A stretch of DNA of 41,675 bases, taken from positions 1 to 41,675 of the forward strand of contig JAFVFY010000060.1 in assembly GCA_017475265.1 (NCBI GenBank), written 5' to 3'. How positions within the stretch are numbered: the stretch's first letter is position 1; every line of letters starts with the position of its first letter. The notes under the pieces are model-generated. The model made no database searches and was not told the DNA's origin. It saw only the letters and a list, made by a program, of their open reading frames with translations. The stretch is from Prevotella sp. Its GTDB lineage: Bacteria > Bacteroidota > Bacteroidia > Bacteroidales > Bacteroidaceae. The position numbers and the translations under genes are program-made. This document shows, one piece after another, positions 26,857 through 41,675 of the stretch.

Positions 26857-28599
26857 ATGCACAAAAATCTACTCATGACAGCTGTCTTTATGGCAGCTTG
26901 CATTCAGGTGAATGCACAGTCATTGGCCACCGATTATAAGGGTTCGGCCAACAACAATCCTATCAGTGCCAACATCTTCTGTGCCGATCCCACGGCTCTG
27001 GAGTACAACGGACGTGTGTATGTCTACGGCTCGAACGACCACCAGCAGTTCATTGCGAATGGCAAGAAGGGCGAAAACAACTATGGTTCCATCAAGTCGA
27101 TCGTGGTATTCTCTTCCGATGACATGGTGAACTGGACCTTCCACGGAACCATCGACGTGGCTAAGCTCTGCTCCTCATGGGTGACGAGTCCTTGGTATCA
27201 GGGCTTTGGCGTCTCGTGGGCACCATCGGTCACCTGGCGCACCACGGAGGAAGGTGTTGACGAGTTCTTCCTCTACTTCTGCAACAGCAGCCACGGCGTT
27301 GGCGTGCTGAAAGCCAATTCGCCTATCGGCCCTTGGAAGTCGCCTAACAACAAGTTGATGATTCATTACGATACTCCGGGCGCAAATCCGGCAAATACTA
27401 ATGCCAATTTTGACCCAGGTGTAGTCATCGACGATAACGGCGTTGGCTGGATTTCTTTCGGCGGCCTTGGCCCCAGTGTCATTATGCCCAATGCTGCCCG
27501 TATAGCGAAACTGAAGCCCTCGATGACCGAACTCGATGGAGCGGCTGTCAAGATTTATGCACCCTACCACTTCGAGGCCAACGAACTGAACGTCATCGGC
27601 GGAAAATTCGTTTATACCTATTGCTCTAACTGGGCAAGTCGCAACGATGCCGAATGGAACGCCTATAAGTCAGAGCATGGCATCAACGTTCCTAAACCCA
27701 ATACCTGCACCATGTGCTATATGGTTTCCGACAATCCTATGGATCCCGACTCCTGGGTGTACAAAGGTGTCTACGGACCTCATCCCGGCATGGGAACGAA
27801 CAACAACCACTCCCACTTGCAGAAATTCCAGGGAGAGTACTATCATTTCTACCACGGAGCTCCCTTGATGGAGAGTTGGAGAAGTGCCGGCGTTATCGAA
27901 CAGAATTGCGGCATCTTCCGTTCCATCTGTGTGAACAAGGCAACGGTGAACGAGGCAACGCAGAATATTCCCGCAGTCACGACGAACCTCCAGGGCGTTG
28001 AACCCGTCAAGAGCCTGAACCCCTACGAACTGCAGCAGGCCGAGACCATGGCCAGCTGTGGCGGTGTGGAGTATGAGGACTACACCAACATCAAAAAGAA
28101 TACCAGAATCAGCAAATTGGGTAATGACGCTTCTGAGAATATGCAGGTGAACATGAGGGCTGGCTCATGGATTAACGTACGCAACGTAGACTTTGGTACG
28201 ACTGGCGCCAGCAAGTTCATGCTACGTGCCAAGGGAACAGGTACTGTGGATTTGCGTTTCGGCAGGGCAGGACGTCCAATAGCCACCTTGGAATTCTCGT
28301 CAACGGACATGGAAGACCACACCATCGAACTCAATGCCACCAAGTTCCATGGAGTTAAGAACAACTTCAACATCAGCTTCTCCGCTGCTGAAGATGTCTA
28401 CGTGGATGCTTGGCAGTTTGCAGAGTTAGTGCCTGATGGCATTGAGGAAATAGAAGCTGGTAAAATCGCAAACAGCACATCCGCTAATTGCTATGACCTT
28501 TCCGGTCGTAAACTGTCAGGCTCCCACCAAAATCGCGGCATTGTCATCGAGCAGTTTGTCGATGAGAATGGTGTGAAGCACAATCGCTTGAAGTACTAA
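26857..28599 (+). CDS. GH43-CBM6 arabinoxylan arabinofuranohydrolase-like enzyme, secreted
   Basis: 580 residues. Signal peptide to about residue 21 (FMAACIQVNAQ). Residues about 35-350 are a GH43 five-bladed propeller: FCADPTALEYNGRVYVYG holds the base Asp44, FDPGVVIDDNGVGWISFGG the modulator, and HFEANELNV the acid Glu. Residues about 390-535 form a CBM6-type beta-sandwich (YELQQAETMASCGGVEYED, then VYVDAWQFAEL), which binds xylan or similar chains. The end (CYDLSGRKLSG...GIVIEQF) matches the C-terminal pattern of other secreted proteins of these bacteria and may be a sorting signal. First gene of a unit with the GH51 enzyme 40 bp downstream. Confidence 0.9.
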   Translation: MHKNLLMTAVFMAACIQVNAQSLATDYKGSANNNPISANIFCADPTALEYNGRVYVYGSNDHQQFIANGKKGENNYGSIKSIVVFSSDDMVNWTFHGTIDVAKLCSSWVTSPWYQGFGVSWAPSVTWRTTEEGVDEFFLYFCNSSHGVGVLKANSPIGPWKSPNNKLMIHYDTPGANPANTNANFDPGVVIDDNGVGWISFGGLGPSVIMPNAARIAKLKPSMTELDGAAVKIYAPYHFEANELNVIGGKFVYTYCSNWASRNDAEWNAYKSEHGINVPKPNTCTMCYMVSDNPMDPDSWVYKGVYGPHPGMGTNNNHSHLQKFQGEYYHFYHGAPLMESWRSAGVIEQNCGIFRSICVNKATVNEATQNIPAVTTNLQGVEPVKSLNPYELQQAETMASCGGVEYEDYTNIKKNTRISKLGNDASENMQVNMRAGSWINVRNVDFGTTGASKFMLRAKGTGTVDLRFGRAGRPIATLEFSSTDMEDHTIELNATKFHGVKNNFNISFSAAEDVYVDAWQFAELVPDGIEEIEAGKIANSTSANCYDLSGRKLSGSHQNRGIVIEQFVDENGVKHNRLKY

Positions 28600-28639
28600 A
28601 TAAATATGCCCCGGCGAACCAATAAAATCCTAAAACAAT

Positions 28640-30232
28640 ATGAAAAAGACCATTTTGATTTCGACTGTCGCGCTGGCTTTCACCGTGAGTGCCTCGGCAG
28701 CAGATAACATCAAGGCAACGGTTCACGCCGACCAGGCGGGAGCCAAGATTAACCGTGAGATTTACGGACAGTTCTCCGAGCATCTCGGCACCTGCATCTA
28801 TGGCGGTCTCTGGGTGGGTGAGGACTCCAAGATTCCCAACATCAAGGGCTACCGTAAGGATGTGTTCGACGCCCTGAAGGCGCTGAAGGTGCCCGTGCTG
28901 CGCTGGCCAGGCGGATGCTTCGCCGACGACTACCACTGGATGGACGGCATAGGTCCGAAGGACAAGCGGCCGTCGTTGCGCAACAACAACTGGGGTGGCA
29001 CCATCGAGGATAACTCCTTCGGCACGCACGAGTTCCTGAACCTTTGCGAGATGCTCGACTGCGAACCCTACATCAGCGGTAACGTGGGCAGCGGCACCGT
29101 CAAGGAGATGGCCCAGTGGGTGGAGTACATGACCAGCGACGGTGATACTCCTATGGCTCGTCTGCGCCGTGCAAATGGCCGCGAGAAAGCCTGGCATGTG
29201 AAGTACTTCGGCATCGGCAACGAGGCATGGGGCTGCGGTGGCAACATGACGCCGGAATACTACAGCGACGAGTTCCGCAAGTTCAACACCTACCTGCGCG
29301 ACTATACGGGCAACAAGCTCTACCGCATCGGTAGTGGCGCTTCTGACTATGACTACAAGTGGACGGAGGTGCTCATGGACAAGATTGGCGACCGCATGCA
29401 GGGTGTCTCCCTACATTATTATACTTGTTCGGGTTGGGACGGCTCGAAAGGCTCGGCCACGAAGTTCAGCACCGACCAGTACTATTGGGCACTAGGCAAG
29501 TGCCTTGAGATTGAGGAGGTCATCAAGCGTCACAAGGCCATTATGGACGAGAAAGACCCGAAGGGAAAGGTGGGCTTGCTCGTCGATGAGTGGGGCACAT
29601 GGTGGGACGAGGAACCGGGCACCGTCAGCGGTCATCTCTACCAGCAGAACGCCCTGCGCGACGCTTTCGTGGCATCGCTCTCGCTCAACGTGTTCCACAA
29701 GTACACCGACCGTGTCAAAATGGCAAACATCGCCCAGATTGTGAACGTGCTGCAGTCGATGATCCTCACCGACCAGGAGGGCACAGGACACATGGTGCTC
29801 ACGCCCACCTATCACGTATTCAAGATGTACACGCCGTTCCAGGAGGCCACCTACCTGCCTGTTGACCTGCCCACGGAGACCATCCAGGTGAGCAAGGCCT
29901 ACTTCAAGGAGAAGGAGGGCGCCAAGGATGCTGGCTACCGTCCTTGCCCCATGCTCTCAGCGTCAGCTGCCAAGACCACGGACGGCAGCCTCGTGCTGGC
30001 CATCACCAATGTGAGCCTCGACAAGGCGCAAACCATCGACTTCCAGCTCGACGGCTATCAGGCAAAGACCGTCAGCGGAGAGATCCTCACCTCGCAGAAG
30101 GTCGATGACTACAACGACTTCCAGCACCCGGAGGTCGTTTCGCCCAAGCCCTTCAACGATGCCAAGATAAAGAACAATACCGTCACCCTTCAGGTACCCG
30201 CAAAATCCATCGTTGTATTGAACATCAAATAA
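28640..30232 (+). CDS. abfA: GH51 alpha-L-arabinofuranosidase, secreted
   Basis: 530 residues with signal peptide ([16 protein letters not shown]). GH51 (beta/alpha)8 barrel with C-terminal beta domain: [18 protein letters not shown] near the start, [15 protein letters not shown], acid/base Glu195 in [11 protein letters not shown] and nucleophile Glu317 in [10 protein letters not shown]. Removes terminal arabinofuranose from arabinan or arabinoxylan oligosaccharides. Many GH51 enzymes are intracellular, but this one has a clear export signal and is likely periplasmic. It follows the GH43-CBM6 gene closely and probably takes over its products; the thioesterase gene starts 12 bp downstream and is probably in the same transcript. 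Confidence 0.95.
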
Positions 30233-30244
30233 TCCCAACGACCA

Positions 30245-30646
30245 ATGGACATACGGGAATTGCTGAACAGGAATGACCGTTTCGCGGCCAATGCGGGTTG
30301 CAGGATTACGGAGGTGGACGAGCAGCACGCTGTGGCTGAGATGACTGTGACGGCAGAGCACCTGAACGGTGGTAATGTCTGTCAGGGAGGAGCCTTGTTC
30401 ACGCTGGCCGACTTGGCCATTGCCGCCTTGATGAACAATAACGGACAGCTCACCTTCGGCATTAGCAACAGCATCATGTATGTGTCGAGTGCGAGAGAGG
30501 GTGACCAGCTACGTGCAGAGGCCTGCCACGTAGCCAATCACCCTAAGGTTCCTTCTGTAGAGGTGCGAGTCACCAACCAGGAAGGACGGCTCATCTGTCA
30601 TGTCACAGGCATAGGCTACCGCAAAGCTGTTACCCTTTCTCCATAA
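30245..30646 (+). CDS. PaaI-type hotdog-fold thioesterase
   Basis: 133 residues, single hotdog domain with the PaaI signature HLNGGNVCQGGALFTLADLAIAAL, where the helix carries the conserved Asp. Hydrolyses acyl- or aryl-CoA thioesters in the cytoplasm; exact substrate unknown. Its product has no visible relation to arabinan use, and the 12-bp gap after the GH51 gene suggests only shared transcription. Confidence 0.88.
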   Translation: MDIRELLNRNDRFAANAGCRITEVDEQHAVAEMTVTAEHLNGGNVCQGGALFTLADLAIAALMNNNGQLTFGISNSIMYVSSAREGDQLRAEACHVANHPKVPSVEVRVTNQEGRLICHVTGIGYRKAVTLSP

Positions 30647-30662
30647 CTATACCTCACTAAAT

Positions 30663-30716
30663 CACTAAATCTCTCAAAAACCCCTTTTTACAAAGGCGTT
30701 TTTGAGAGATTTAGTG
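30663..30716. terminator. Perfect 18-bp inverted repeat, probable terminator
   Basis: CACTAAATCTCTCAAAAA (30663-30680) is the exact reverse complement of TTTTTGAGAGATTTAGTG (30699-30716), with an 18-base loop. It starts 17 bp after the thioesterase stop. The right arm begins with T5 but no T-run follows, so it could also be processed or block entry from the right. Confidence 0.7.
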
Positions 30717-30789
30717 TGTCACGCCGCACTTTTAACAGGCAACGTTCATCGGTATAGTCATGTTTGTAGCCAACAAAGGTTTTCTGTCA
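30717..30789. other. Short gene-free segment
   Basis: No frame, repeat or promoter recognised between the hairpin and the fold-back element. Confidence 0.5.
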
Positions 30790-31228
30790 TTTTTCTCACA
30801 GATTTTTTTTGATTTCTCTATACATTCCTACATTTTTCGTGTAACCATCATATATACAGAATGTTAGACAATGTATAGACCATACACAAAATGGAGCGAC
30901 TATACATGGACTGTAGAAGGACTTTTTCAACCAACATAACGTAGGAAAGCAGTAACAATAACCGACCTTTGTTTCAGTTTCCACCGTGGAAACTGTTTGT
31001 TTCTCCCGTAGAAACAAATTGTTTCCACGGGAGAAACAAAGTGAAACAAACTGATTATCCGATACTTAAATACGTTATTGCGGTCATTATCCTACGTCTT
31101 TTCTCAATGAATGTATAGAGCTCATCAATTATGTAGGGTCTATACATTAGCTAAAACATTTATACTTAGACTATTACATTAAAAATGTAGGAATGTATAG
31201 TGTTTTTAAAAACTTTTCGTGAGAAAAA
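30790..31228. repeat. 439-bp fold-back element with 48-bp terminal inverted repeats (MITE-like)
   Basis: The 48-bp ends 30790-30837 and 31181-31228 are inverted copies: ten outer bases (TTTTTCTCAC) and twenty inner bases (CTATACATTCCTACATTTTT) match exactly, with a variable 18-bp stretch between of identical length. Weaker inverted similarity continues inward (AATGTATAGACC on the left, GGTCTATACATT on the right). The middle holds the phased palindromes at 30976-31037. No protein-coding frame is credible and there is no evident target-site duplication. It resembles a non-autonomous element or a conserved cis-acting module. Confidence 0.8.
30976..31037. repeat. Three 17-bp palindromes spaced 22 bp apart
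   Basis: GTTTCCACCGTGGAAAC (30977), GTTTCTCCCGTAGAAAC (30999) and GTTTCCACGGGAGAAAC (31021) each start exactly 22 bp after the previous one; a fourth GAAAC half-site follows at 31043. The first is a perfect dyad with 9-bp arms when A and T outside are counted; the second and third also pair with each other over 11 bp (GTTTCTCCCGT with ACGGGAGAAAC). Two-turn phasing is what a row of dimeric DNA-binding proteins would require. Confidence 0.85.
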
Positions 31229-31254
31229 TTGTACACATACCGCTTAATTTCATT

Positions 31255-31329
31255 ATGAAACTCCCGCACATAGATGAAGTCGGTCAGGGCGAAGTCGGTA
31301 TGATCAAAAAGGTGGTGGAAGGCATGTAA
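31255..31329 (+). other. 24-codon frame, possible gene remnant
   Basis: From ATG at 31255 reads MKLPHIDEVGQGEVGMIKKV then three more codon pairs to a TAA. It begins just outside the fold-back element. Too short and without a promoter to call a gene; it could be the tail of a deleted one. Confidence 0.25.
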
Positions 31330-31450
31330 TCACAAAGGGCTCGGGATGATAAAGCAAAAAAAATGCTTGTTTAGGTGGGATTACAAGCCTCAAACGGTTT
31401 AATATTTCTTAAATCACACCTTAATATATAAAAGTAAGAGATTTATTTCG

Positions 31451-31458
31451 TAACTTTG
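31451..31458 (+). promoter_or_regulatory. -7 element of the defence operon
   Basis: TAACTTTG followed by CAAG, preceded by AT-rich sequence. No clear -33. It is the only good TAnnTTTG match in the 400 bp before the helicase gene and would give a leader of about 340 nt. Confidence 0.65.
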
Positions 31459-31459
31459 C

Positions 31460-31804
31460 AAGTGCATTGTGGCAATTGCTCGGTTCGATGAGACGTCTGC
31501 CTGAGCAAGAACCTATCTCCGGAGGGAGTGAAGGCTGCGATGCAGGACATCGTGGGTCGAAAAAGACATTGTATCTGATTCGGAAGTGATTCGCAAGTTC
31601 GAAAGTCCCTACCAATGACAATCGACAAAAGCCAAATGAATCGCAAACGGAAAGGGTACGCCTGTATGGGCGTATCCGTTTGTGCATATTTCATTTGGCA
31701 AGGTAACTGTGGTAGGGACGCCTGAACTTCGGAGTATGAACGGCGGGTGCGCTTTCTTTATGCCCTACGGTGCGTACTATAAATATTGATTAGTCCCTAC
31801 CACA
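31460..31804 (+). promoter_or_regulatory. Long structured leader with two alternative pairings before the helicase start
   Basis: Nested stems: GTCCCTACCA (31605-31614) with TGGTAGGGAC (31710-31719); GCCAAATGAA (31631-31640) with TTCATTTGGC (31690-31699); CAAACGGA (31644-31651) with TCCGTTTG (31675-31682); TACGCC (31657-31662) with GGCGTA (31669-31674). The strand TGTGGTAGGGAC (31708-31719) is also an exact 12-base complement of GTCCCTACCACA (31793-31804), which ends at the base before the helicase ATG. The two foldings exclude each other. Two small frames lie inside: 31488-31589 (33 codons) and 31615-31725 (36 codons), the latter beginning right after the first GTCCCTACCA. Confidence 0.6.
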
Positions 31805-34800
31805 ATGACCAATCAAACACTTAAAATAGAGGTGGGCAGTATTGTGTCTGGCCTCACGCCCGCTGAATCGGTGGAGATTACCAAGATTCAGACATTGGGC
31901 TCAAAGTATTCGCTCTCTTACACAGGAGTGAATACCCATCGTGCTGGCTCTAAAATTGTGACAACAGAGCAGATAGAAGCCTTAGAAGTGCTGACTACTG
32001 ATGGTGAGTTTAACTTCAAAGGCGACCCTCAGCGTTTTGTGCTCTATGCAGAAGCAGAACGCATCAAATCTGCCTATCAGTTTGACCCGCTCTTTGCCAT
32101 TAACTGTAGTGTCGTTGACCCTTTGCCTCATCAGGTGGAGGCCGTCTATAAGTTTCTGTTGCCACAACCCAAGATTCGTTTCTTGCTTGCAGATGATACA
32201 GGTGCAGGTAAAACCATCATGACAGGCCTTCTTCTGAAGGAACTGATGCTTCGCCATTATGTGGAGCGAATATTGATTGTCACGCCTGGAGGTCTGACGA
32301 AACAATGGCAGGAGGATGAGATGGGCGTGAAGTTCAATATCCCCTTCAAACTGGTGAATCGAAGTGTATTCTCTTCTGAGCCTACAGTCTTCCAGAATAG
32401 TGACCGCGTGGTAGCCAGTATCGATTTCATCTGTCGAGATGACATCTTGAATGTTTTGTCGAAGACCAGTTGGGATATGGTCATCTTTGATGAGGCCCAT
32501 AAACTGTCTGCTTACGAATATGGCGAGAAAATCTATAAATCGAAACGCTATGAGGCTGCCCATATCTTGGCACAGCAATGTGAGCATATTCTTTTACTGA
32601 CAGCCACACCACATCGTGGACGTAAGGATACTTTCAAGCGACTTCTTCAATTACTCGATGAAGATATCTTCGCCACAGCAGATCTGGCTACAGAACGTGT
32701 ACGCGAATTGAGCGAAACAGGTTCCAACAAATTCTTCATCCGTCGCTTGAAGGAGGATATGAAGGATTGGGATGGGAATCCGCTCTACAAGAAACGTTTT
32801 ACCAAGACTGTCAGTTACAATCTGACGCCAGATGAGAAGCGTCTTTATGATGCTGTGACCAAATATCTGACTAAGCGTAAGGAAGAGGCTGCGGAAACCA
32901 AGAATATTCATGTATCTTTGGCCCTTCAGGTGATGCAGCGCAGATTGGTGAGCAGTATCTACGCCATACGTAACACCTTACAGAAACGATGGATAGCTCT
33001 GCAAGGTCTTACAGACGAATTAGAGCGCAATCCGTCTTTGTGGAAGCAAAAAGTCAAGTTAGAGGATTTTGATGATATCAACATTGATGACCTCGATGAC
33101 TTGGAGGATGACGAGCGCGAGGCATTAGACAACATCCTCTCTGACCCCAAGAAGCTAAAACTCTTTACCACTTCAAAGAGTCCTAGCGAGATTAAGGCAG
33201 AGACCCTAGAGGTGAAGGAACTCTACCTGATGGCTGATTCTCTGTATAATCAGCAACAGGAAGAGCAGAAATATAAGGAGCTCAAACATCTGCTCACCTC
33301 TGAAGGTGTGATAGATGGTAAGAAACTTGTTATCTTCACAGAGCATAAGGATACATTATTATATCTTCAGGAGCGACTTCAAAACAATGGCTATACGGTG
33401 GCCACAATTCATGGCGGCATGTCTGTGGATGAGCGTCGCCAGTCTCAATGCCAGTTTATGCTGCCTGATACTCAGATTCTGATTTGTACAGATGCAGCAG
33501 GCGAAGGTATTAACCTTCAGTTCTGTCGCTTGCTCATCAACTGGGATATTCCTTGGAATCCGAATCGCTTGGAGCAACGCATGGGTCGTATTCACCGTTA
33601 TGGCCAAAAGGATGATGTAATAGTCTTCAATATGGTGGCAGACAATACGCGAGAAGGCCAGGTGTTGAAGAAACTGCTTACGAAACTCGACATCATCCGT
33701 GAGCAGCTTGGTGACGATCGTGTTTACGATGTCATCCAAGATGTGCTGAAAGGTGTGTCTCTTGACTGTATCATCGAATCAGTCCTGAATGGGCACGAGA
33801 GCGACCTTGATGCTTTTATTGATAAAACGCCAACGGAATTGGGTGGTCTTTTCTCAAAGAGTATTGAAGAACAAAGTAAGGCAATGGCTCATTCTACAGT
33901 TGACTATAAAGAAGCCCGCTTGTTGAAAGAGGATAGTGATGAGCGTCGCCTCCAGCCTATTTATATCCGGCTGTTCTTCGAGAGAGCCTTTAAATACTTT
34001 GGCGGGCAGTATCGCAAACTGTCAGATGGCATCTATCAGATAGATGTGATTCCTGATGTAATCGTTAAACGACTCAAGGAGAAATACAATATCTACGCTG
34101 AGAATCTGACCAATCTCTATTTCTTCTTCGATAAGCAATTGTTCTTGGAATATCAGGCCTCAACTGCAGCATATGGACGTGCGCATTACATCAATCCTGG
34201 CAACGCCTTATTCGACAGTTTGGTGGATGTTGTGAGTGACCTGTTCCACGATGAAATGCTGAAGGGTACAGTCTTGGTCTCTCCAGAAGACCAGCATCCC
34301 TATTTTGCTTACTTCGTGAAGAATCAGATACAGGATAATACCACCAATCAAGATGGTGAGCCCAATGTTGCAAACGAACTGTTGTCACTTGTTTGTGAGA
34401 AAGATGGAGAATTCCGTCAAACATCACCAGCCAAATTGTTAGACCTCTGTCCTCCTGCAACATTTGCCAAGGAGATTACCCCTCCGGACGTTGTCAATGA
34501 AGACGAAGTAGTACAATGGGCATTCGAGCATATCACAGAGCCTCTTTTCGAGCAAACACAGCAAACAGTAGAGGAAGATAATGCCAGACGCAAAGAATAC
34601 TTGCAGTCTGCTTTCCAACAGATTATCCTTGATATTCAGGGAGAAATTAACGAACTGCAAGGCAAAGTCTTCATGGCTGAAGATGAAAAGGCTCAACAAA
34701 AACTTGAGGCTAAAGAGAGACGCTTGGAAGAGTTAAAACAGCGAAAGGTAGAGAGATTGCAAGAACTTGAAGAAGGCAATGAACTCTCAGCTATTGCGCC

Positions 34801-35248
34801 TGAGGTTTTAGGCTGTGCCTATGTTGTTCCACTCAATCAGGTAGAATACAAGCATAACTATGGCATGAGCCGCGATGACGAAGTGGAGGCCATTGCGATG
34901 CAGACTGCTATGGACTATGAAACAGCAAATGGTCGCACACCTGAAGATGTATCAAAAGACAACGTAGGCTACGACCTGAAGAGTATCGATGCTGAGGGCC
35001 AGAAACGTTATATCGAAGTGAAAGGTCGCTCAGGCACAGATGGCGTGATGCTCTCTGAAAACGAGATGAACCGCCTGGCGCAACTTGGCACTAAAGCCTG
35101 GCTATACATCGTCACTAATTGTAAATCAAATCCGCAACTTAATATTATCAATGATCCTGCCAACAGAATGAACTTTGAGCAAAAGACCAAAGGCATTCAG
35201 TTCTATCTCCCTTTGGAGGAATGGCAGCATAATACAAACGAATTATGA
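31805..35248 (+). CDS. SNF2-type helicase with C-terminal DUF3883 nuclease-like domain (Hma-type defence system helicase)
   Basis: 1147 residues. The N-terminus (KIEVGSIVSGLTPAESVEI) is a small beta domain common to this helicase family. Helicase core one: Walker A DDTGAGKT at about 131-138, DEAH at 229-232, LLLTATPHRG after it. Core two: KKLVIFTEHKDTL, TDAAGEGINLQ and the arginine-finger motif QRMGRIHRYGQ near residue 600. A coiled coil (about 920-990) leads to a C-terminal DUF3883 domain whose GYDLKSI and RYIEVKGRS supply a D...ExK arrangement as in PD-(D/E)xK nucleases. No signal peptide; cytoplasmic. It overlaps the methylase gene by ATGA, so translation is coupled. Expected to move along or remodel invading DNA, possibly cutting it. 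No Shine-Dalgarno precedes the ATG. Confidence 0.9.
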   Translation: MTNQTLKIEVGSIVSGLTPAESVEITKIQTLGSKYSLSYTGVNTHRAGSKIVTTEQIEALEVLTTDGEFNFKGDPQRFVLYAEAERIKSAYQFDPLFAINCSVVDPLPHQVEAVYKFLLPQPKIRFLLADDTGAGKTIMTGLLLKELMLRHYVERILIVTPGGLTKQWQEDEMGVKFNIPFKLVNRSVFSSEPTVFQNSDRVVASIDFICRDDILNVLSKTSWDMVIFDEAHKLSAYEYGEKIYKSKRYEAAHILAQQCEHILLLTATPHRGRKDTFKRLLQLLDEDIFATADLATERVRELSETGSNKFFIRRLKEDMKDWDGNPLYKKRFTKTVSYNLTPDEKRLYDAVTKYLTKRKEEAAETKNIHVSLALQVMQRRLVSSIYAIRNTLQKRWIALQGLTDELERNPSLWKQKVKLEDFDDINIDDLDDLEDDEREALDNILSDPKKLKLFTTSKSPSEIKAETLEVKELYLMADSLYNQQQEEQKYKELKHLLTSEGVIDGKKLVIFTEHKDTLLYLQERLQNNGYTVATIHGGMSVDERRQSQCQFMLPDTQILICTDAAGEGINLQFCRLLINWDIPWNPNRLEQRMGRIHRYGQKDDVIVFNMVADNTREGQVLKKLLTKLDIIREQLGDDRVYDVIQDVLKGVSLDCIIESVLNGHESDLDAFIDKTPTELGGLFSKSIEEQSKAMAHSTVDYKEARLLKEDSDERRLQPIYIRLFFERAFKYFGGQYRKLSDGIYQIDVIPDVIVKRLKEKYNIYAENLTNLYFFFDKQLFLEYQASTAAYGRAHYINPGNALFDSLVDVVSDLFHDEMLKGTVLVSPEDQHPYFAYFVKNQIQDNTTNQDGEPNVANELLSLVCEKDGEFRQTSPAKLLDLCPPATFAKEITPPDVVNEDEVVQWAFEHITEPLFEQTQQTVEEDNARRKEYLQSAFQQIILDIQGEINELQGKVFMAEDEKAQQKLEAKERRLEELKQRKVERLQELEEGNELSAIAPEVLGCAYVVPLNQVEYKHNYGMSRDDEVEAIAMQTAMDYETANGRTPEDVSKDNVGYDLKSIDAEGQKRYIEVKGRSGTDGVMLSENEMNRLAQLGTKAWLYIVTNCKSNPQLNIINDPANRMNFEQKTKGIQFYLPLEEWQHNTNEL

Positions 35249-38200
35249 AAGCAAAGAAACTCATAGAGGTGGCTCTGCCCATCAAAGAAATATCAGCAGA
35301 AAGTGTACGCGACAAGAGTATCCGTCACGGACATATCAGTACCCTGCATCTGTGGTGGGCACGTAGGCCATTGCCTGTATGTCGTGCTATTGTTTTTGCA
35401 AGTTTAGTGCCAGACCCACTGGATGATAATTGCCCAGAGGCTTTTAAGTATGCAGTAGAGTATCTTCTAAATACTGGTCTTGGCAAATTGCATTACAAAC
35501 CATACAAAGACATTCCTTATACCAGCATTGTTGACGAGATGGAGGATAACCATCGCAACCGTTTGATGATGTTTATAGGCAAGTTTTCTGATACGTGCCA
35601 GACAAATATGATTGCGGGTAAATCGACACCTCCCAAAGAACAGTTGGATGACTGGTCACTCATCAAATGGGAAAACAAGAACAACCCAAAGATACTTCGT
35701 TTGGCAAGAGAATTGATTTTTGTGGCTTATCAGAGCGACAAAAGACCTGATGCCACATGGGAAGAACTACATGCAGAGTTTGATAGGCTTTATGATGCCA
35801 TCCCTAAAGCAGAGAAGAATCTTTATGAATTGAAAGACCGTCATATTGAGACGGAGAAAGTAAAGCAACTCGAAGCTGAATTACAGGCTGCCATTGATGC
35901 TTTCCAAAATGAAATGCCATCAGTTTTTGACCCGTTCGCTGGGGGAGGTGCAATACCTTTGGAGGCAGCCCGTTTAGGTTGTCGTAGTTATGGTAACGAT
36001 ATCAACCCTGTTGCTCATATTATTGAGCGTGGTTCTGCTGAGTTCCCACAGAAATATGGTAAACCTATCGTATATAGTAAGGAAGAGTTTGAAAAACTTT
36101 ATGGGGAAGAAGGTCATAAAATGGCGCAGGAAGATGGGCGAAATATTTCATTTGATGGAGAATGCTATCATATCCCTAATCGTTTGGCTTTCGATGTAGA
36201 GTTCTATGCTAAAAAGATACTTTCAATTACAGAGAAAGAAATTGGCAATTTGTATCATTCAACAACAGAGAAGACCCCTCTTGTATATTATTGGGTAAGA
36301 ACAGCTAAATGTTCTAATCCAAGTTGTCGAGCAGATATCCCAATGCTTAAGCAATTCTATATCTCCAAAAGAAGAACGGCAAGACCCAAAGATTGGTATT
36401 ATCTGTCACCAATAATAGAAAAGAATAATATAGATTTTGAAATTAAAAGAGGTAACTGTTCAGAAGATGGATGGAATAATCGTGGAAATCTTACATGTCC
36501 TTGTTGTGGTAACATAACAAACATTTCTGAAATTAAAAAGCAGTTTTGTTCAGCTCCAATCAAAGAACGTTTAATCGCTATTATTGAAGATGGGAACGAA
36601 AGGACATATAGAACTCCTAATCAAAGAGATATTGATCTAGTTGAGAAATTAAAAAGAGTCGACACAATCCCTTCAGAAAAATTAGAAGTAGGAAATATCC
36701 GTAATTTTAATACGCCTGGCTGGGGGATTGATTCTTTTGATGGTTTATTCTCAAAACGGCAGAGTATATTTCTAGCAAAATTCAAAGAAAAGATTGAAGA
36801 AATATGCTCTGAAATTCATCTTGATGTTAAGTACGTTTCTGTTATTAAAACTTATCTTGCATTATGGTTTGATAAAGTACTTTGTAGAAATACATCATTT
36901 GGAGTCTGGCACAAATTACAAGAAACTGTTGAACACCCCTTTGGCAGACAAGCAATCCCTATGGTGTTTGATTATCCGGAAATGAATCCATTTTCCAATT
37001 TATCAGGAGCTTGTATTGGTCAGTTGAATTCTGTTGTGTCATTTATTGAGAACGAAAATTCTTTCCCATCCGTATTTAACAATATTATGAGTGGTGATAG
37101 AAGTCAATTTGAAAAGAAGACAATTACAGCTGTCATAACTGATCCACCATATTATGACGCAATCGCATATGCAGATTTGGCTGACTTTTTCTACGTATGG
37201 TTGAAAGCAATTATATATAAAGAGTATGAATTAGTTTTTTCCACACCAAAGACTCCAAAGCAAGACGAATGCACAGCTTTGAAACATCATCATGGAAATA
37301 GTGATGATGAAGCAAAAAAGCATTTTGAGACAATGCTGACAGCAATATTCGATGCAATAGAACTTCAAACATCCGATGTCGTAAGCATAATGTTTGCTCA
37401 TCAAAGTACTGAAGCGTGGACTACATTATGTAACTCAATATTAGATGCAAGAATGAATATCACAGGTAGTTGGCCTATGGATACTGAAGTAAGTATAGCT
37501 CTTAAGGCACAAATGTCTACTCTCGAATCTTCTGTAACTGTCGCATGTCGCCCATCTGAGCGTAAAGGCTTTGCAGACTTTGATGAAGTAAAGCATGATA
37601 TTCGACAATTGGTGAAGGCAGAAGTAGAAAAACTTTATGGCCTTGGTTTCCGAGGTGCGGATTTGCTAACGGCTTGCTTTGGTCAGGCTGTGAGCGTATT
37701 TGGACATTATAAACTAGTTGAGACAGCAGAGGGTGAACCTGTTAGTGTTGGACAATTATTGGAGTTCGCTCGCGAGAGTGCAGCACAGGCTTTGCTTGAA
37801 GGTGTACCAGGAGAACCACAAACCAAATTCTATTGTGGATGGCTCCAGATGAACGGTATGTCGGAATGTGATTTCGACGATGTGAACAAATATACTCGCG
37901 TAGGTGTAAATGTGGAGATTCGCAGCTTGCAAAGCGATAAGCTGTTGATTACGGAAGGCAGTAAGCAACACTTGGCAACAGCAGAAGAACATGTTGGCAG
38001 TAATCAGAGTTGGGGCACACAACCAACAGACTATATGATAAGTCAAGTACACCGTATGATGTTGGCTTATCGTGGTGGAAATCAGGTCTTACTGCTTAAA
38101 CTAGTGCGAGAGCTTTGCCCACAAAGCGATGCTCCACAATGGCGAGTATTGGATTTCCTTGGTGGTCATCTTCCTGAAGACAGTCAAGATTATAAAGATG

Positions 38201-38292
38201 TAAAGGGCATTCTTGCGAGTGCAGAAATGCTTCGTCAGAAGTGTAAAGATACAGCAGTTCCTAAGGTTGGTACATTTGAATTTGAAGATTAA
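35245..38292 (+). CDS. DUF1156 DNA methyltransferase (Hma-type defence system methylase)
   Basis: 1015 residues. N-terminal DUF1156 signature: LIEVALPIKEISAESVRDKS and GHISTLHLWWARRPLPVCRA. SAM-binding motif I is DPFAGGGAIPLEA (Asp229 onward) and catalytic motif IV is DPPYYD (Asp633 onward), the DPPY form of adenine-N6 or cytosine-N4 methylases. Between them a four-Cys zinc ribbon (Cys356, Cys361, Cys418, Cys421). Probably modifies host DNA so that the helicase/nuclease spares it, as in restriction or DISARM-like systems; target unknown. Starts inside the helicase stop codon. The central third (about 36100-37500) is visibly more AT-rich than either end, suggesting exchange of the specificity region. 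Confidence 0.92.
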   Translation: MKAKKLIEVALPIKEISAESVRDKSIRHGHISTLHLWWARRPLPVCRAIVFASLVPDPLDDNCPEAFKYAVEYLLNTGLGKLHYKPYKDIPYTSIVDEMEDNHRNRLMMFIGKFSDTCQTNMIAGKSTPPKEQLDDWSLIKWENKNNPKILRLARELIFVAYQSDKRPDATWEELHAEFDRLYDAIPKAEKNLYELKDRHIETEKVKQLEAELQAAIDAFQNEMPSVFDPFAGGGAIPLEAARLGCRSYGNDINPVAHIIERGSAEFPQKYGKPIVYSKEEFEKLYGEEGHKMAQEDGRNISFDGECYHIPNRLAFDVEFYAKKILSITEKEIGNLYHSTTEKTPLVYYWVRTAKCSNPSCRADIPMLKQFYISKRRTARPKDWYYLSPIIEKNNIDFEIKRGNCSEDGWNNRGNLTCPCCGNITNISEIKKQFCSAPIKERLIAIIEDGNERTYRTPNQRDIDLVEKLKRVDTIPSEKLEVGNIRNFNTPGWGIDSFDGLFSKRQSIFLAKFKEKIEEICSEIHLDVKYVSVIKTYLALWFDKVLCRNTSFGVWHKLQETVEHPFGRQAIPMVFDYPEMNPFSNLSGACIGQLNSVVSFIENENSFPSVFNNIMSGDRSQFEKKTITAVITDPPYYDAIAYADLADFFYVWLKAIIYKEYELVFSTPKTPKQDECTALKHHHGNSDDEAKKHFETMLTAIFDAIELQTSDVVSIMFAHQSTEAWTTLCNSILDARMNITGSWPMDTEVSIALKAQMSTLESSVTVACRPSERKGFADFDEVKHDIRQLVKAEVEKLYGLGFRGADLLTACFGQAVSVFGHYKLVETAEGEPVSVGQLLEFARESAAQALLEGVPGEPQTKFYCGWLQMNGMSECDFDDVNKYTRVGVNVEIRSLQSDKLLITEGSKQHLATAEEHVGSNQSWGTQPTDYMISQVHRMMLAYRGGNQVLLLKLVRELCPQSDAPQWRVLDFLGGHLPEDSQDYKDVKGILASAEMLRQKCKDTAVPKVGTFEFED

Positions 38293-38304
38293 AACCTATA
38301 GACT

Positions 38305-41094
38305 ATGGATAAAGTAATGATGAATAATGGGAATTCGCTTCCTGCATGGTATAATGTAGTCGCTCCCCAAAACGATATTCGAAATGGGGTTCTCGACGAG
38401 AGCATCTTTGCTGCTAATATAGAGGAAGTAGCTACAGGAACAGCACCTGTGGTGTATCAAGATATTAGGTTTTTCTTTGAATGTACATACGTGACGGATG
38501 GAATCAAGGAGTTGATACGTCGCGTAGTACAGGCACTAAATGGCAAGGAAAGCCAAAATAGGGTTATTTCCCTACAGACAGGATTTGGTGGTGGTAAGAC
38601 CCACTCGCTGATATCGCTCTATCATGTAGTGAAAGATAGTCCTGTATTCAGGGATTTAGGAGTGGCACAAACCATCTTGGAGCCTGAGGATATGCCACAA
38701 TTCAATAATGCGAAAGTGGCGGTGTTCACTCAGAATACTGTCAACGTTGTTGATGGCCATCAGGTAGCGGACGGCATTATTACCCATACACTTTGGGGCG
38801 AATTGGCGTGGCAATTAGGTGGTCGCGAGGCATACGAAATAGTGCGTAACGATGATACACAGATGATTGCTCCCAATGCTCAGAAGTTCAAGACAATTCT
38901 CGAGAAAGCAAGTCCCGCTTTGATACTGATAGACGAGTTGGCTGATTACTGCAACAAAGCAAGTGGCAAGATAGTAGGCAGTGGAACCTTATTTACCCAA
39001 ACAAATAGTTTCATACAAGCCCTAACCGAAGTGGTATCTTCTGTACCCAGAACTGTGCTGATATGTACACTTCCTGCCAGCGCAAGAGAAGTGGCATCGA
39101 GCGAAATTGGCCAGGAGATTCTTTCTTCATTGGAGACTCGTGTGATTCGTGTTGGTAGTAGTGTAAAGCCTGTTGATGATGAAGAAATCTATGAGGTGGT
39201 TCGTCGACGGCTCTTTGATTGTATCACCAATCAGGATGTTATCGAACAGGTAGCAAGGAAATATAAGGATATGTACCATAATCGCCGTGATGCTTTGCCT
39301 AATGAAGCTGACCGTGTGGCATACGTGGAGCGTATCAAGAAAGCTTACCCATTCCATCCGGAATTGATAGACTTGTTCCGTGTTCGCTGGGGAAGTGATT
39401 CAAGATTCCAGCGCACAAGAGGTGTCTTGCGTCTATTGGCAAGTATCGTAAAGGATTTGTGGCAACGAAAGAGTTCACTCGTGGGTACACAAGCCTTAAT
39501 CCAGACAAGCGATGTGCTGTTGGATAATCTGCCAACTTTGCAAAGTCAGATTACAAGTCTGATGGGTGCCCAATGGGATTCCGTGATGCACGCGGATGTA
39601 ATCGGAACAATTAGCAATGCTTACAAGATTGACGAAAAGAATGTAGGAAGCAATATTGGAGATTATCACTTGGCCACAGCTGTAACGACAACGGTGTTGA
39701 TGGCTTCCATTGGTTCTTCTTCTCAAAAAGGATTATCATTGAAGCAGCTGAAACTTTGTTTGCTGAAACCAGATGCATTCCAGCATAATGACATTGACTC
39801 TGCTGTATTTCAGTTGGAGAATGTGGTTCACTATATGTATCGCAGTAGCATAGGTGGTGAGCAGAGCTATTGGTTCCAGTCTAAGCCAAACATCAACATC
39901 CTGATTAATCAGGCTAAGGGTGATGTGAAGGACGATGAGATAAACGCCGAGGTTTTGCAGATGATTAAACAATCTGTAATGACTATTTCAAAAGTGAAGG
40001 TACTGGTAGATCCTACTGGAGATGTACCTGAACAGAAGCAATTGACCTTTGTTGTTATGCATCCAAAGTATACCGTTGCTGCTGGTGGAAATGTAAGCCG
40101 TACAGCAGAACTTGCTATCAAGCAGATGGCACAGATGAAAGGATCTTCTCAACGTGTATATCGCAACACAATGCTTTATCTCTTATGTTCAGAAGCTGGT
40201 AAGGCTGCACTCAGTATGAAGTTGAGGGAATACTTGGCATGTGATAAGATTATCAAGGAATATGGTGGACAGCTTGATCCTGAGCAGAGAAAGGATGTGG
40301 CAGACAGAAAGAAATTAAGCGCAGATGCTGCAAAAGAGCAATTGATACACGCCTATAATACGGTGGTAAAATGCGTTCGTGATGATTTGCAGACACAGGA
40401 AATTGTATCCTTTGCCTCAGATTTTGCATCACAGATAACTGTCAATACGCTACAAGAACTACATGAAAATGGTTGGGTACTTCGTCGTATCGGTCTGAAT
40501 GTCATCAATCGCAATGGATTGATGCCAACAGTAGAAAAGCCTGTAAAGGTGAATGATGTCTATGAGGCTTTCCTGCGTTTTGATGACAAACCCATGATTC
40601 TGAATGTTGAGACTATCACGGATACGGTAAACAGATATTGCGAAGAGGGTATGTGGAATGTAGGTACTGGGGCAGGGGAGCCTTATTCTCGTATCTACCA
40701 TAACGAAAGGGTTACATTCCTGAATCCACAGGAGGATGGCTATTGGCTGTTGGATCCATCTGTTATGCCCAAACCTGCTGGGGGAGGTGGTCCTACACCA
40801 GTTCCTCCGACACCTGGTCCTTCTCCTACGTCATCACCAGAGCCGGGGGCAGAACCGACGCCTACCACTAAGACCTATAAGAAGTTGACGATTAGTGGTA
40901 GTGTGCCTATTGAGAACTATAGCCAATTGTTCTCCAGTTTTGTGAATACGCTGAAGAATAACCATCTGAAAATAGAGGTGAAATTTACGGCCAGCAATAG
41001 TTCTGCCAATCCTCTTACTGACAATTCACCAATCGTTAAGAGTGTGAAGGAATCAGCCTCACAGTTAGGCTTGGAATTAGAAGTTGAAGAATAG
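38305..41094 (+). CDS. DUF499 P-loop ATPase (Hma-type defence system ATPase)
   Basis: 929 residues. N-terminal segment, then Walker A GFGGGKTH (Gly93-His100) and Walker B ALILIDELADYC (Asp210-Glu211) of the DUF499 AAA-like family; TRGVLRLLASIVKDLWQ and YRNTMLYLLC are further family segments. The C-terminal part holds a Pro/Thr/Ser linker (about residues 823-857: GGGGPTPVPPTPGPSPTSSP) followed by a ~70-residue terminal domain (YKKLTISGSVPIENYSQLFS). DUF499 proteins are regularly next to DUF1156 methylases and such helicases in predicted anti-phage loci; their molecular role is unsettled. The gene starts 12 bp after the methylase stop and ends 129 bp before a terminator, closing the operon. Confidence 0.92.
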   Translation: MDKVMMNNGNSLPAWYNVVAPQNDIRNGVLDESIFAANIEEVATGTAPVVYQDIRFFFECTYVTDGIKELIRRVVQALNGKESQNRVISLQTGFGGGKTHSLISLYHVVKDSPVFRDLGVAQTILEPEDMPQFNNAKVAVFTQNTVNVVDGHQVADGIITHTLWGELAWQLGGREAYEIVRNDDTQMIAPNAQKFKTILEKASPALILIDELADYCNKASGKIVGSGTLFTQTNSFIQALTEVVSSVPRTVLICTLPASAREVASSEIGQEILSSLETRVIRVGSSVKPVDDEEIYEVVRRRLFDCITNQDVIEQVARKYKDMYHNRRDALPNEADRVAYVERIKKAYPFHPELIDLFRVRWGSDSRFQRTRGVLRLLASIVKDLWQRKSSLVGTQALIQTSDVLLDNLPTLQSQITSLMGAQWDSVMHADVIGTISNAYKIDEKNVGSNIGDYHLATAVTTTVLMASIGSSSQKGLSLKQLKLCLLKPDAFQHNDIDSAVFQLENVVHYMYRSSIGGEQSYWFQSKPNINILINQAKGDVKDDEINAEVLQMIKQSVMTISKVKVLVDPTGDVPEQKQLTFVVMHPKYTVAAGGNVSRTAELAIKQMAQMKGSSQRVYRNTMLYLLCSEAGKAALSMKLREYLACDKIIKEYGGQLDPEQRKDVADRKKLSADAAKEQLIHAYNTVVKCVRDDLQTQEIVSFASDFASQITVNTLQELHENGWVLRRIGLNVINRNGLMPTVEKPVKVNDVYEAFLRFDDKPMILNVETITDTVNRYCEEGMWNVGTGAGEPYSRIYHNERVTFLNPQEDGYWLLDPSVMPKPAGGGGPTPVPPTPGPSPTSSPEPGAEPTPTTKTYKKLTISGSVPIENYSQLFSSFVNTLKNNHLKIEVKFTASNSSANPLTDNSPIVKSVKESASQLGLELEVEE

Positions 41095-41223
41095 ATGACT
41101 GTCCGTTTGGGCTGATGGCGGAAATGAGACGATATGCTTATGCGACTTCTTCCTGTCACTGTCCACTTGTAAGTATTCCTTACATGTTGACTCTTTTCCA
41201 GTCCTACTTCATTGTAAGTGCTG

Positions 41224-41260
41224 AGTGGTATTCGCATCTTTTGCGACTACCACTTCTTTT
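41224..41260 (+). terminator. Intrinsic terminator of the defence operon
   Basis: AGTGGTA (41224-41230) pairs with TACCACT (41248-41254), with CGCA/TGCG continuing the stem, followed by TCTTTTTC. The 129 bp between the DUF499 stop and this hairpin hold no gene. Confidence 0.85.
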
Positions 41261-41675
41261 TCATAATATTTCTCTTGCTATCCAGGCGCACGCCTCTGCA
41301 TCGGCGAGGGCGTGGTGGTGACGCTCCAGGTTGTAGCCGCAGGCGGCGGCGACGGTGTGAAGCTGGTGGTTGAGCAGATGGGGAAGGCGATAGCGGGAGG
41401 CGATTAAGGTACAATGGAACTCGTAGTCGGGGTAGTCCATCTGGTAGCAACGGAAGACGGCCTTCAGGCAGCTCTCGTCGAAGGATTTGTTGTGGGCCAC
41501 GAGGGGCAGGCCTTCGATGAGCGGTTCTATCTGTGCCCATACTTTGGGGAATACGGGGGCTTCCTCGGTGTCCTCATGGGTGAGACCATGCACCTGACTG
41601 CACCAGTAGTTATAGTAGTTCGGCTCAGGCTGGATGAGGGAGTAGAAGGAATCGACAATCTCGCCGTTACGCACG
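41261..41675 (-). CDS. DEDDh 3'-5' exonuclease (DnaQ/RNase T-like), N-terminus outside window
   Basis: The 137 visible residues include HGLTHEDTEEAP (substrate-binding loop), LVAHNKSFDESCLKAVF (Exo II, with the catalytic Asp) and HHALADAEACAWIA (Exo III, HxxxxD), so a DEDDh exonuclease of the DNA polymerase III epsilon/RNase T superfamily. The Exo I motif (DxE) would be in the missing part. The first codon in the window is GTG for Val in the middle of the chain, not a start. Convergent to the defence operon and belonging to the flanking chromosome; not evidently part of the defence module. Confidence 0.88.
   Translation of the reverse strand, partial: VRNGEIVDSFYSLIQPEPNYYNYWCSQVHGLTHEDTEEAPVFPKVWAQIEPLIEGLPLVAHNKSFDESCLKAVFRCYQMDYPDYEFHCTLIASRYRLPHLLNHQLHTVAAACGYNLERHHHALADAEACAWIAREIL

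Follow-up and report, generated by a model that had tools for sequence, protein, structure and literature searches.

A structured leader RNA stands before the Hma operon of a Prevotella genome and before many other DNA-modification and defence operons

The DNA analyzed here (the window, 41,675 nucleotides (nt) of contig JAFVFY010000060.1 in the Prevotella sp. assembly GCA_017475265.1) carries three adjacent genes, hmaA, hmaB and hmaC, which as judged by sequence profiles are an Hma defence system, preceded by a structured leader RNA. The operon is the known part of the locus and the leader upstream of hmaA is the new part. An earlier note, made from the sequence alone, had guessed a helicase, a DUF1156 methylase and a DUF499 ATPase, and the three intact open reading frames (ORFs) gave just these domains in Pfam, with PF13020 NOV_C together with SNF2/ResIII/Helicase_C in the hmaA product, DUF1156 and a below-threshold N6_N4_Mtase match in that of hmaB, and DUF499 in that of hmaC. 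The assignment to the Hma type of PADLOC was borne out as well, the best models for the three proteins being HmaA (697 bits, 1.3e-209), HmaB (406 bits, 7.6e-122) and HmaC (487 bits, 2.4e-146), matched by adjacent genes of one operon, and the ORF coordinates agreed with the tight coupling that had been described (a 4-bp overlap between hmaA and hmaB, then a 12-bp gap before hmaC). The ORF lengths and profile scores rule out a chance origin of the operon. The GC contents, supposed to be below those of the flanks, were 0.34–0.46 per kb over 32–41 kb as compared with 0.43–0.60 on the left side, which holds for most but not all of the left windows. As for the operon having its own promoter and terminator, the former is plausible, with a −7 element being present but about 350 nt before the ATG with the leader in between, whereas no terminator-like site was found on the + strand between 41095 and 41675. 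The note had overlooked the leader at 31465-31804 and the lack of an HEPN domain in HmaC.

The promoter element was named using what we take to be the Bacteroidales −7 consensus, and a TTTGCA-N-N-TGCATTGTGG-like context was found in most of eleven leaders that were aligned. The segment 31465-31830 folds at −130 kcal/mol (z −5.5), with none of 100 shuffled sequences folding equally well. The eleven leaders (loci are numbered with L and genomes with G) have a common anatomy, consisting of a variable 5′ domain with ACATCGTGGG or a similar sequence at its end, P0, P1, an internal loop and then the P2–P3 part, with a locus-specific P2, P3, an apical hairpin and a tail of GGGTGCGCTTTCTTT or similar; in two of them (L019 and L021, type C) the apical hairpin is a different one, and these two did not enter the model. 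In the window, TTGATT (31786-31791) and AATCAA (31811-31816) flank A2 and the start codon and could, by eye, pair as a stem.

Table 1. Positions of the hma genes and of the promoter and leader elements within the window
Feature	Position	Strand	Description
Predicted Bacteroidales −7 promoter element	31451..31458	+	TAACTTTG; transcript start expected near 31464
Variable 5′ domain	31464..31543	+	GCATTGTGGC (31464-31473) can pair with GCTGCGATGC (within 31533-31543), by eye
Structured 5′ leader RNA of hmaA	31465..31804	+	About 340 nt; fold z, covariance models, covariation
P0 closing helix	31571..31759	+	GTATC (31571-31575) with GGTGC within GGGTGCGCTTTCTTT (31745-31759); RNAalifold, 28 Dam leaders
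A1, 5′ strand of helix P2	31605..31614	+	GTCCCTACCA, then ATGAC
P3 and conserved apical hairpin	31631..31699	+	P3 GCCAAATGAA/TTCATTTGGC; hairpin GGGTACGCC-TGTATG-GGCGTATCC (31654-31677)
A′, 3′ strand of P2	31710..31719	+	TGGTAGGGAC; complements both A1 and A2
A2 and start codon	31793..31807	+	GTCCCTACCA-CA-ATG; A2 ends 2 nt ahead of the hmaA ATG
hmaA	31805..35248	+	1147 amino acids (aa); SNF2-type helicase, C-terminal NOV_C at residues 1027-1115
hmaB	35245..38292	+	1015 aa; DUF1156 DNA methyltransferase; DPPY motif (by eye)
hmaC	38305..41094	+	929 aa; DUF499 ATPase; proline-rich linker and C-terminal domain; without N-terminal HEPN

When the hmaA leader was used in a DNA scan of the 398 Prevotella genomes covered by all our genus scans, matches were obtained in 15 genomes, all short except the window's own, and several of these sat in leaders of other genes, namely methylases, helicases and another hmaA (in G276). 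From 16 such places, nine leaders including that of the window were used as seeds of a covariance model, R1, being chosen by leader similarity and type of apical hairpin and not by downstream gene; L017-L022 (type C, with the other apical hairpin and mostly before non-defence genes) and L024 (where no leader was seen) were left out, a choice that favours the defence types. R1, which scores the window leader at 83 bits with the window among its nine seeds, matched 88 of the 398 genomes at E ≤ 0.01 and, counting the window, 89 sites at E ≤ 1e-5, and with eight candidates scored per genome the copy numbers are lower bounds. A second model, R2, built solely from 16 leaders of Dam-type methylase genes and hence without the window, recovered non-Dam leaders at E down to 8e-22 and also the hmaA leader of the window at 45.6 bits (E 6.5e-7), placing the latter in the family by a model to which it had not contributed. 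A family scan using R2, with 12 candidates scored per genome, gave matches in 17 of 201 genomes and 6 of 30 genera, and an order scan using R1 gave two matched genomes among 295, these being the window's own and one weak match among the other 294. A third model, R3, matched 12 genomes of a 40-genome census at E ≤ 0.01, and at E ≤ 1e-14 gave 13 sense sites, spread over 10 genomes with one to three in each; nine of the 13 had been used for training R3. The occurrence of the leader in Prevotella and some sister genera is thereby supported.

The Dam-only model was further used for aligning 80 non-Dam leaders, all matching it at E ≤ 1e-6. In these, 93.9% of the cells were paired, as compared with 70.7 for shuffled sequences and 38–54 with slid partners, with two-sided changes at 52 of 56 pairs and a covariation of 0.628 versus 0.202, although the pairing and covariation values lean upward because the alignment was fitted to the structure of the model. 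Helix 3, which bears on P0, was paired in 99.0%. Among hmaA leaders, P3 occurs as GCCAAATGAA/TTCATTTGGC, GTACAGTGAA/TTCACTGTAC, GCAAGATGAA/TTCATCTTGC and GTCAGATGAA/TTCATCTGAC, and compensatory P3 changes were seen in L186, L187 and L188. In 88 of 89 leaders the sense strand gave a better fold than the complementary strand, and z was below −3 in all 89 (20 shuffles each).

For the genes downstream, 88 sites besides the window were fetched and, with L076, L134 and L142 lacking enough downstream DNA, 86 sites, that of the window among them, were readable, each with the gene in sense orientation. At 84 of these the leader precedes restriction-modification (R-M) or defence genes of about ten kinds, and at two an unknown gene. 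A Dam-type D12 methylase comes first at 28 sites, with one more Dam-type leader (L090) standing before a DpnII nuclease remnant and a methylase, while the other first genes are MmeI-like methylases (23 sites), DUF4007/SspB (11), Type III Mod (10), SNF2-type helicases (six, comprising two hmaA, one DrmD-like and three HKD-SNF2 genes, with L077 and L079 truncated and judged by eye), BrxP (three), a C5 methylase (one, L082, 229 nt on) and a IIG enzyme (one). Gene families were named from representatives, with most of the others placed by BLASTP and a few fragments by eye. Nine of the weaker R1 matches in the genus likewise precede R-M genes (L153-L159, L164 and L166), out of 27 rows weaker than E 1e-5, of which 26 were fetched and the remaining one was the opposite strand of a counted site; L181 and L182, with E above 0.01, look like false matches. 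The family scan gave 18 sense sites, 12 of them before defence genes (four called by eye, L255, L258, L259 and L262), five before genes modifying lipopolysaccharide (LPS; EptA four times and LpxL once) and one, L257, before an unknown secreted protein; one of the 18, L253, had already been counted in the genus. In the R3 census, all 13 sense sites at E ≤ 1e-14 precede defence genes. The leader-RNA family and its link to defence operons are well supported, and the data likewise support a leader whose structure is conserved, with selection acting on the sense strand, and which is located just before the first gene of many DNA-modification or defence operons.

The unknown gene was present in two copies, L083 and L085. 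In L083 (838-3686) it belongs to a unit of two genes (392 and 555 aa) behind a good leader, with no Pfam or NCBIfam match, and for the first gene no PADLOC match was found at 1e-5. By its position, this unit is a candidate new defence system.

The window leader is of subtype A, its 10-nt A2 being a copy of A1 placed 2 nt before the ATG. With A2 defined as at least 8 nt identical to A1, complementary to A′ and ending at most 5 nt from an ATG, and using the 88 of 89 leaders having at least 75 nt beyond the model, the A1/A′/A2 triple was found in 34, that of hmaA included, whereas 100 rounds with dinucleotide-shuffled downstream DNA gave 0.13 on average and never more than 2. The 34 triples make up 13 strings, or about eight distinct words, each identical in its three places: GTCCCTACCA, GCTCCTACCA (used in 7 of the 34), GTCCTACCA, GTTCTACCCC, GTCCCTTCCA, TCCGACCA (used in 14), CGACCAAA and AGTCGACCAA. 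In 47 leaders with a looser triple (at least 7 nt), the stems across the start codon had a mean length of 7.48 versus 6.33 when shuffled (maximum 6.73 of 200). Folded in silico, the window reaches its minimum free energy (MFE) of −143.6 with A1 paired to A′ and A2 mostly open; blocking of A1 gives a 10-bp A′:A2 helix at −138.7, a cost of 4.9 kcal/mol, and blocking the pairing of A′ with both A1 and A2 gives −124.0, a cost of 19.6 kcal/mol. The A1:A′ pairing was present in the MFE structure of 32 of the 34 A2 leaders, and A′:A2 formed in 21 once A1 was blocked. In part of the A2 class (L015, L016, L080 and L163), a short reading frame was seen by eye to begin at A2 and extend up to, or close to, the start of the methylase or following gene, which suggests translational coupling.

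With some confidence, albeit a modest one, we hold that the Hma operon, of the Type-1 BREX-related kind, is probably controlled by its member of the leader-RNA family acting as a switch of translation in cis; for the A2 subtype as a whole, translational control in cis is the best inference and is moderately supported. During transcription, the decoy arm A1 would form a long hairpin by capturing the antisense arm A′ and the A2-AUG would stay open, while withdrawal of A1 by a P0/P1 rearrangement, a bound factor or cleavage would let A′ pair with A2 and close the start site. Such a switch could set how much methylase or helicase is made, perhaps upon establishment or under phage attack, and leaders without A2 would use another outlet, perhaps the hairpin that in Dam leaders was seen, by eye only, beside the start codon.

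The position of the leader at the 5′ end of the predicted transcript would also suit a processive-antitermination or attenuation element, at the hairpin of which RNA polymerase becomes modified so as to read through long operons, with EAR, put and UpxY-type leaders as comparators. This could account for the leaders without A2, and some targets indeed head long operons, such as Hma (9.3 kb), a flippase gene followed by two glycosyltransferase genes, and SspB genes followed by an ATPase-like gene of more than 1000 codons (L150 and L158, by eye). One terminator-like match falls inside the leader, at 31663-31686 in the region of the apical hairpin, but none was found in the leader tail, and the 10 such matches in 30600-41675 are near the shuffled mean of 7.9 (sd 2.7). 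As an A2 within 5 nt of an ATG in 34 of 88 leaders and a distance of 17–19 nt between model end and ATG in 23 of 28 Dam leaders both point to translation, we find antitermination unlikely, if still the strongest of the alternatives. Somewhat less likely again is that the hairpin is a protein-binding operator, where a host RNA-binding protein or the encoded enzyme would bind the start region with A1 as a decoy. Here the sequence conservation of the apical hairpin and the P0 3′ strand is what would be expected of a binding site, and in several leaders A1, by eye, repeats A2 plus some of the ATG context behind it; however, the A word varies by locus and A′ tracks it, fitting RNA pairing better than one protein, and about ten kinds of first gene make autoregulation by the product unlikely. 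That the leader is processed to a small RNA acting in trans, with the A′ arm blocking the starts of other transcripts having the same A2, we judge improbable: the same word does recur at many loci, as given above for TCCGACCA and GCTCCTACCA, and a 3′ fragment beginning after A1 folds with A′:A2, but with one to three strong copies per positive census genome the trans targets would be few. A DNA element (a miniature inverted-repeat transposable element, or a recombination or methylation site) with only an incidental RNA fold is already disfavoured and most improbable, for although the leader is dispersed, differs between hmaA alleles and is near-palindromic, such that the models also score the other strand, more weakly, the sense orientation of the downstream genes, the better fold of the sense strand and the two-sided changes speak against it, as do the lack of any plasmid BLAST match for the window leader and the absence from viral contigs of two exact patterns taken from other leaders.

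A number of further candidates were rejected. An invertible promoter would change little upon inversion, the arms forming one near-palindromic hairpin; no reverse transcriptase of a retron was found among the genes typed beside leaders; no known self-splicing intron was matched in Rfam; and a conserved leader peptide was considered, the 36-codon ORF at 31615 ending early in L185 (by eye). The A words often end in CCA, inviting comparison with the tRNA pairing of T-boxes, but GTTCTACCCC does not, and such pairing was dropped for this reason.

Several observations weigh against the proposal of a cis translation switch serving defence, to which the upward lean of the pairing values noted above should be added. 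By the triple test, 54 of the 88 leaders have no A2, including all Dam and type B leaders, and the switch therefore cannot be the common mechanism as stated. Even among the 34 A2 leaders, A′:A2 formed upon blocking of A1 in only the 21 mentioned, and in none of the seven having GCTCCTACCA. The window's own leader was missing from the sites reported by the R2 family scan, despite its E of 6.5e-7 when matched directly. Seventeen of the weaker rows in the genus (L152, L160-L163, L165 and L167-L177) are not before R-M genes, part of them being distant leaders, of types C and D, in front of genes for secreted or efflux proteins, and the wider superfamily is therefore not specific to defence. Close members also precede envelope genes, namely those of a flippase with two glycosyltransferases (L163), a GT25 (L161), LpxL (L261) and EptA (L264 and L267 by Pfam, L265 and L268 by protein start), and four weaker sense sites of the R3 census (L304, L305, L311 and L313) are before secreted, unclassified or no readable genes. 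Given the C and D types and the similar R3 matches, the superfamily may serve more generally in Prevotella, with defence genes as heavy users. Type C was assigned to L017, L019, L021, L167 and L174 and type D to L160, L165, L169, L170, L304, L311 and L313, with secreted, lipoprotein, efflux or unclassified genes behind them. Several of the envelope-gene proteins behind leaders have, by eye, a short N-terminal extension, the coding sequence of which adjoins the leader.

The hmaA loci themselves hold one more such point. R1 was run at E ≤ 1 upstream of 67 named loci with an HmaA match (that of L251 only 26% identical) and of L124 and L126, a few being cut short upstream, and a sense-strand leader was found before hmaA in L185, L186, L187 (Xylanibacter ruminicola D31d), L188 and L244, all Prevotellaceae, with type B in L244 (G276) and type A in the other four. 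The hmaA of L203 (G338), having 85.6% DNA identity to that of the window, nevertheless has no leader by either R1 or R3, and it is closer to the window than are those of L186 (82.0%) and L187 (77.0%), as given by pairwise DNA identity and not by a tree. A promoter-like TTTGCA occurs in L203 shortly before the hmaA ATG. With such a close relative being leaderless, the leader is an add-on and neither part of Hma nor needed for it.

The Hma operon is accessory, as relatives of hmaB (E ≤ 1e-20) were found in 5 of the 398 genus genomes, counting the window's own and one fragment. The thioesterase and exonuclease genes flanking it are not neighbours in the eight relatives fetched; together, these findings exclude a housekeeping operon, named in the earlier note as one finding that would overturn its reading. 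No empty site was recovered from the flanks, the thioesterase gene having no nearby exonuclease gene in those eight relatives. The four flanking genes tested were two glycosidases, the thioesterase and the exonuclease, the former lying to the left at 26857-30232 as GH43 and alpha-L-arabinofuranosidase genes for hemicellulose use, with no tie to defence. What looks like an old mobile element lies at 30789-31229, 5′ of the operon promoter, as an imperfect 56-nt inverted repeat (79%) around ATGTATAG repeats and three GTTTC units of 22 nt. The window HmaC begins about 180 residues later than its relatives in L067, L124 and L125, the whole HEPN domain being gone; HEPN_Swt1 is above the Pfam cut-off in L067 and L125 and just under it in L124 (26.5 vs 27.5 bits), where a 3-residue deletion affects RNxxxH, which we take to be the HEPN motif. 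L125 (3308-13526, G071) has a different layout, with an hmaB-hmaC pair followed by a 1071-aa gene with no Pfam match and then a DEAD-box helicase gene. HmaB relatives of less than 60% identity were found in 64 records of a plasmid collection (Thermus, Rhodococcus, cyanobacteria and others), and the methylase family thus travels on plasmids elsewhere.

Bacteria have to keep many costly defence systems, which can damage the cell itself, at a suitable dose, and the ways of doing so that are known to us are mostly protein regulators tied to one system. The leader standing before many different phage-defence operons in related gut bacteria suggests one shared way of control, which one leader architecture before about ten kinds of defence gene would make directly testable. 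It is conceivable, if rather doubtful, that the barrier genes of Prevotella and its relatives form a regulon with a single RNA family as their shared point of control. Such a regulon would cover most modification and restriction classes and, in sister genera, the LPS genes EptA and LpxL, with an A1/A′/A2 word for each locus allowing cross-talk to be avoided and a conserved core (apical hairpin and P0) sensing one signal of phage attack or translational stress; the LPS-modifying targets fit a theme of barriers to phage. The leader can also serve as a marker for new defence genes, two leaders preceding the gene with no Pfam, NCBIfam or PADLOC match, and it is relevant to the expression of these defence systems or the transformation of Prevotella.

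With regards to known systems, the Hma defence system was named in PMC8565338 and, in the sections of that paper covered here, has the same three proteins in the same order as the window operon, with HmaB predicted to be an m5C methylase, whereas the window HmaB has the DPPY motif (by eye) and N6_N4_Mtase similarity; the window operon also differs in the missing HEPN domain of its HmaC. In the covered sections of PMC12839542, tripartite Hma is Type-1 BREX-related, homologous to the ATPase, methylase and helicase of Type-3 BREX, with an HEPN RNase fused to the ATPase being optional (1370 of 2446 taxa); a study of HmaA is cited there and a leader RNA is not mentioned. The window operon is alike in its DUF499 ATPase, in the HEPN-less form, DUF1156 N6-methylase and helicase, with three core genes and no further ones, the neighbours being the thioesterase and exonuclease genes; the HEPN fusion is lacking, and membership stands because that trait is optional. 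The earlier description as a minimal version of DISARM or BREX should be reworded to this effect. It had noted the absence of drmB (DUF1998), drmC (PLD) and PglZ, none of which is among the matches listed for the operon proteins (for HmaA, the best 25 of 67), nor drmB or drmC among the four flanking genes, and HmaC matches BrxC weakly (4.9e-5).

On the RNA side, cis-regulatory leaders are a well-known kind in Rfam 15, but no model matched the leader of the window at E ≤ 1, the best hits of the window (E 0.17) being to miRNA models outside the leader, and the same search of 24 more locus entries, among them the window's own (L014), gave no credible match to their leaders. A 224-motif survey reportedly includes a D12-methyl RNA motif, by name tied to D12-class DNA methylases, as are the Dam leaders. 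If that motif is in Rfam 15, it gave no match to the Dam-leader loci L086, L089, L092 and L120, and nothing on it was found in the open-licence literature. The 3161 candidate structured RNAs of human microbiomes in PMC8040213 could contain the defence leader as an unnamed Prevotella candidate, the words restriction, methyltransferase and methylase being absent from its main text, a statement that covers the main text and not the tables. Among open-licence papers, as covered by titles and abstract openings and with the supplement of PMC8040213 outside the scope, no description of such a leader was found. A likeness in function is seen in the control by C proteins, which in the covered sections of PMC6237814 also balances the expression of methylase and nuclease; that, however, is a protein regulator of one system, whereas the leader described here is an RNA shared by different systems.

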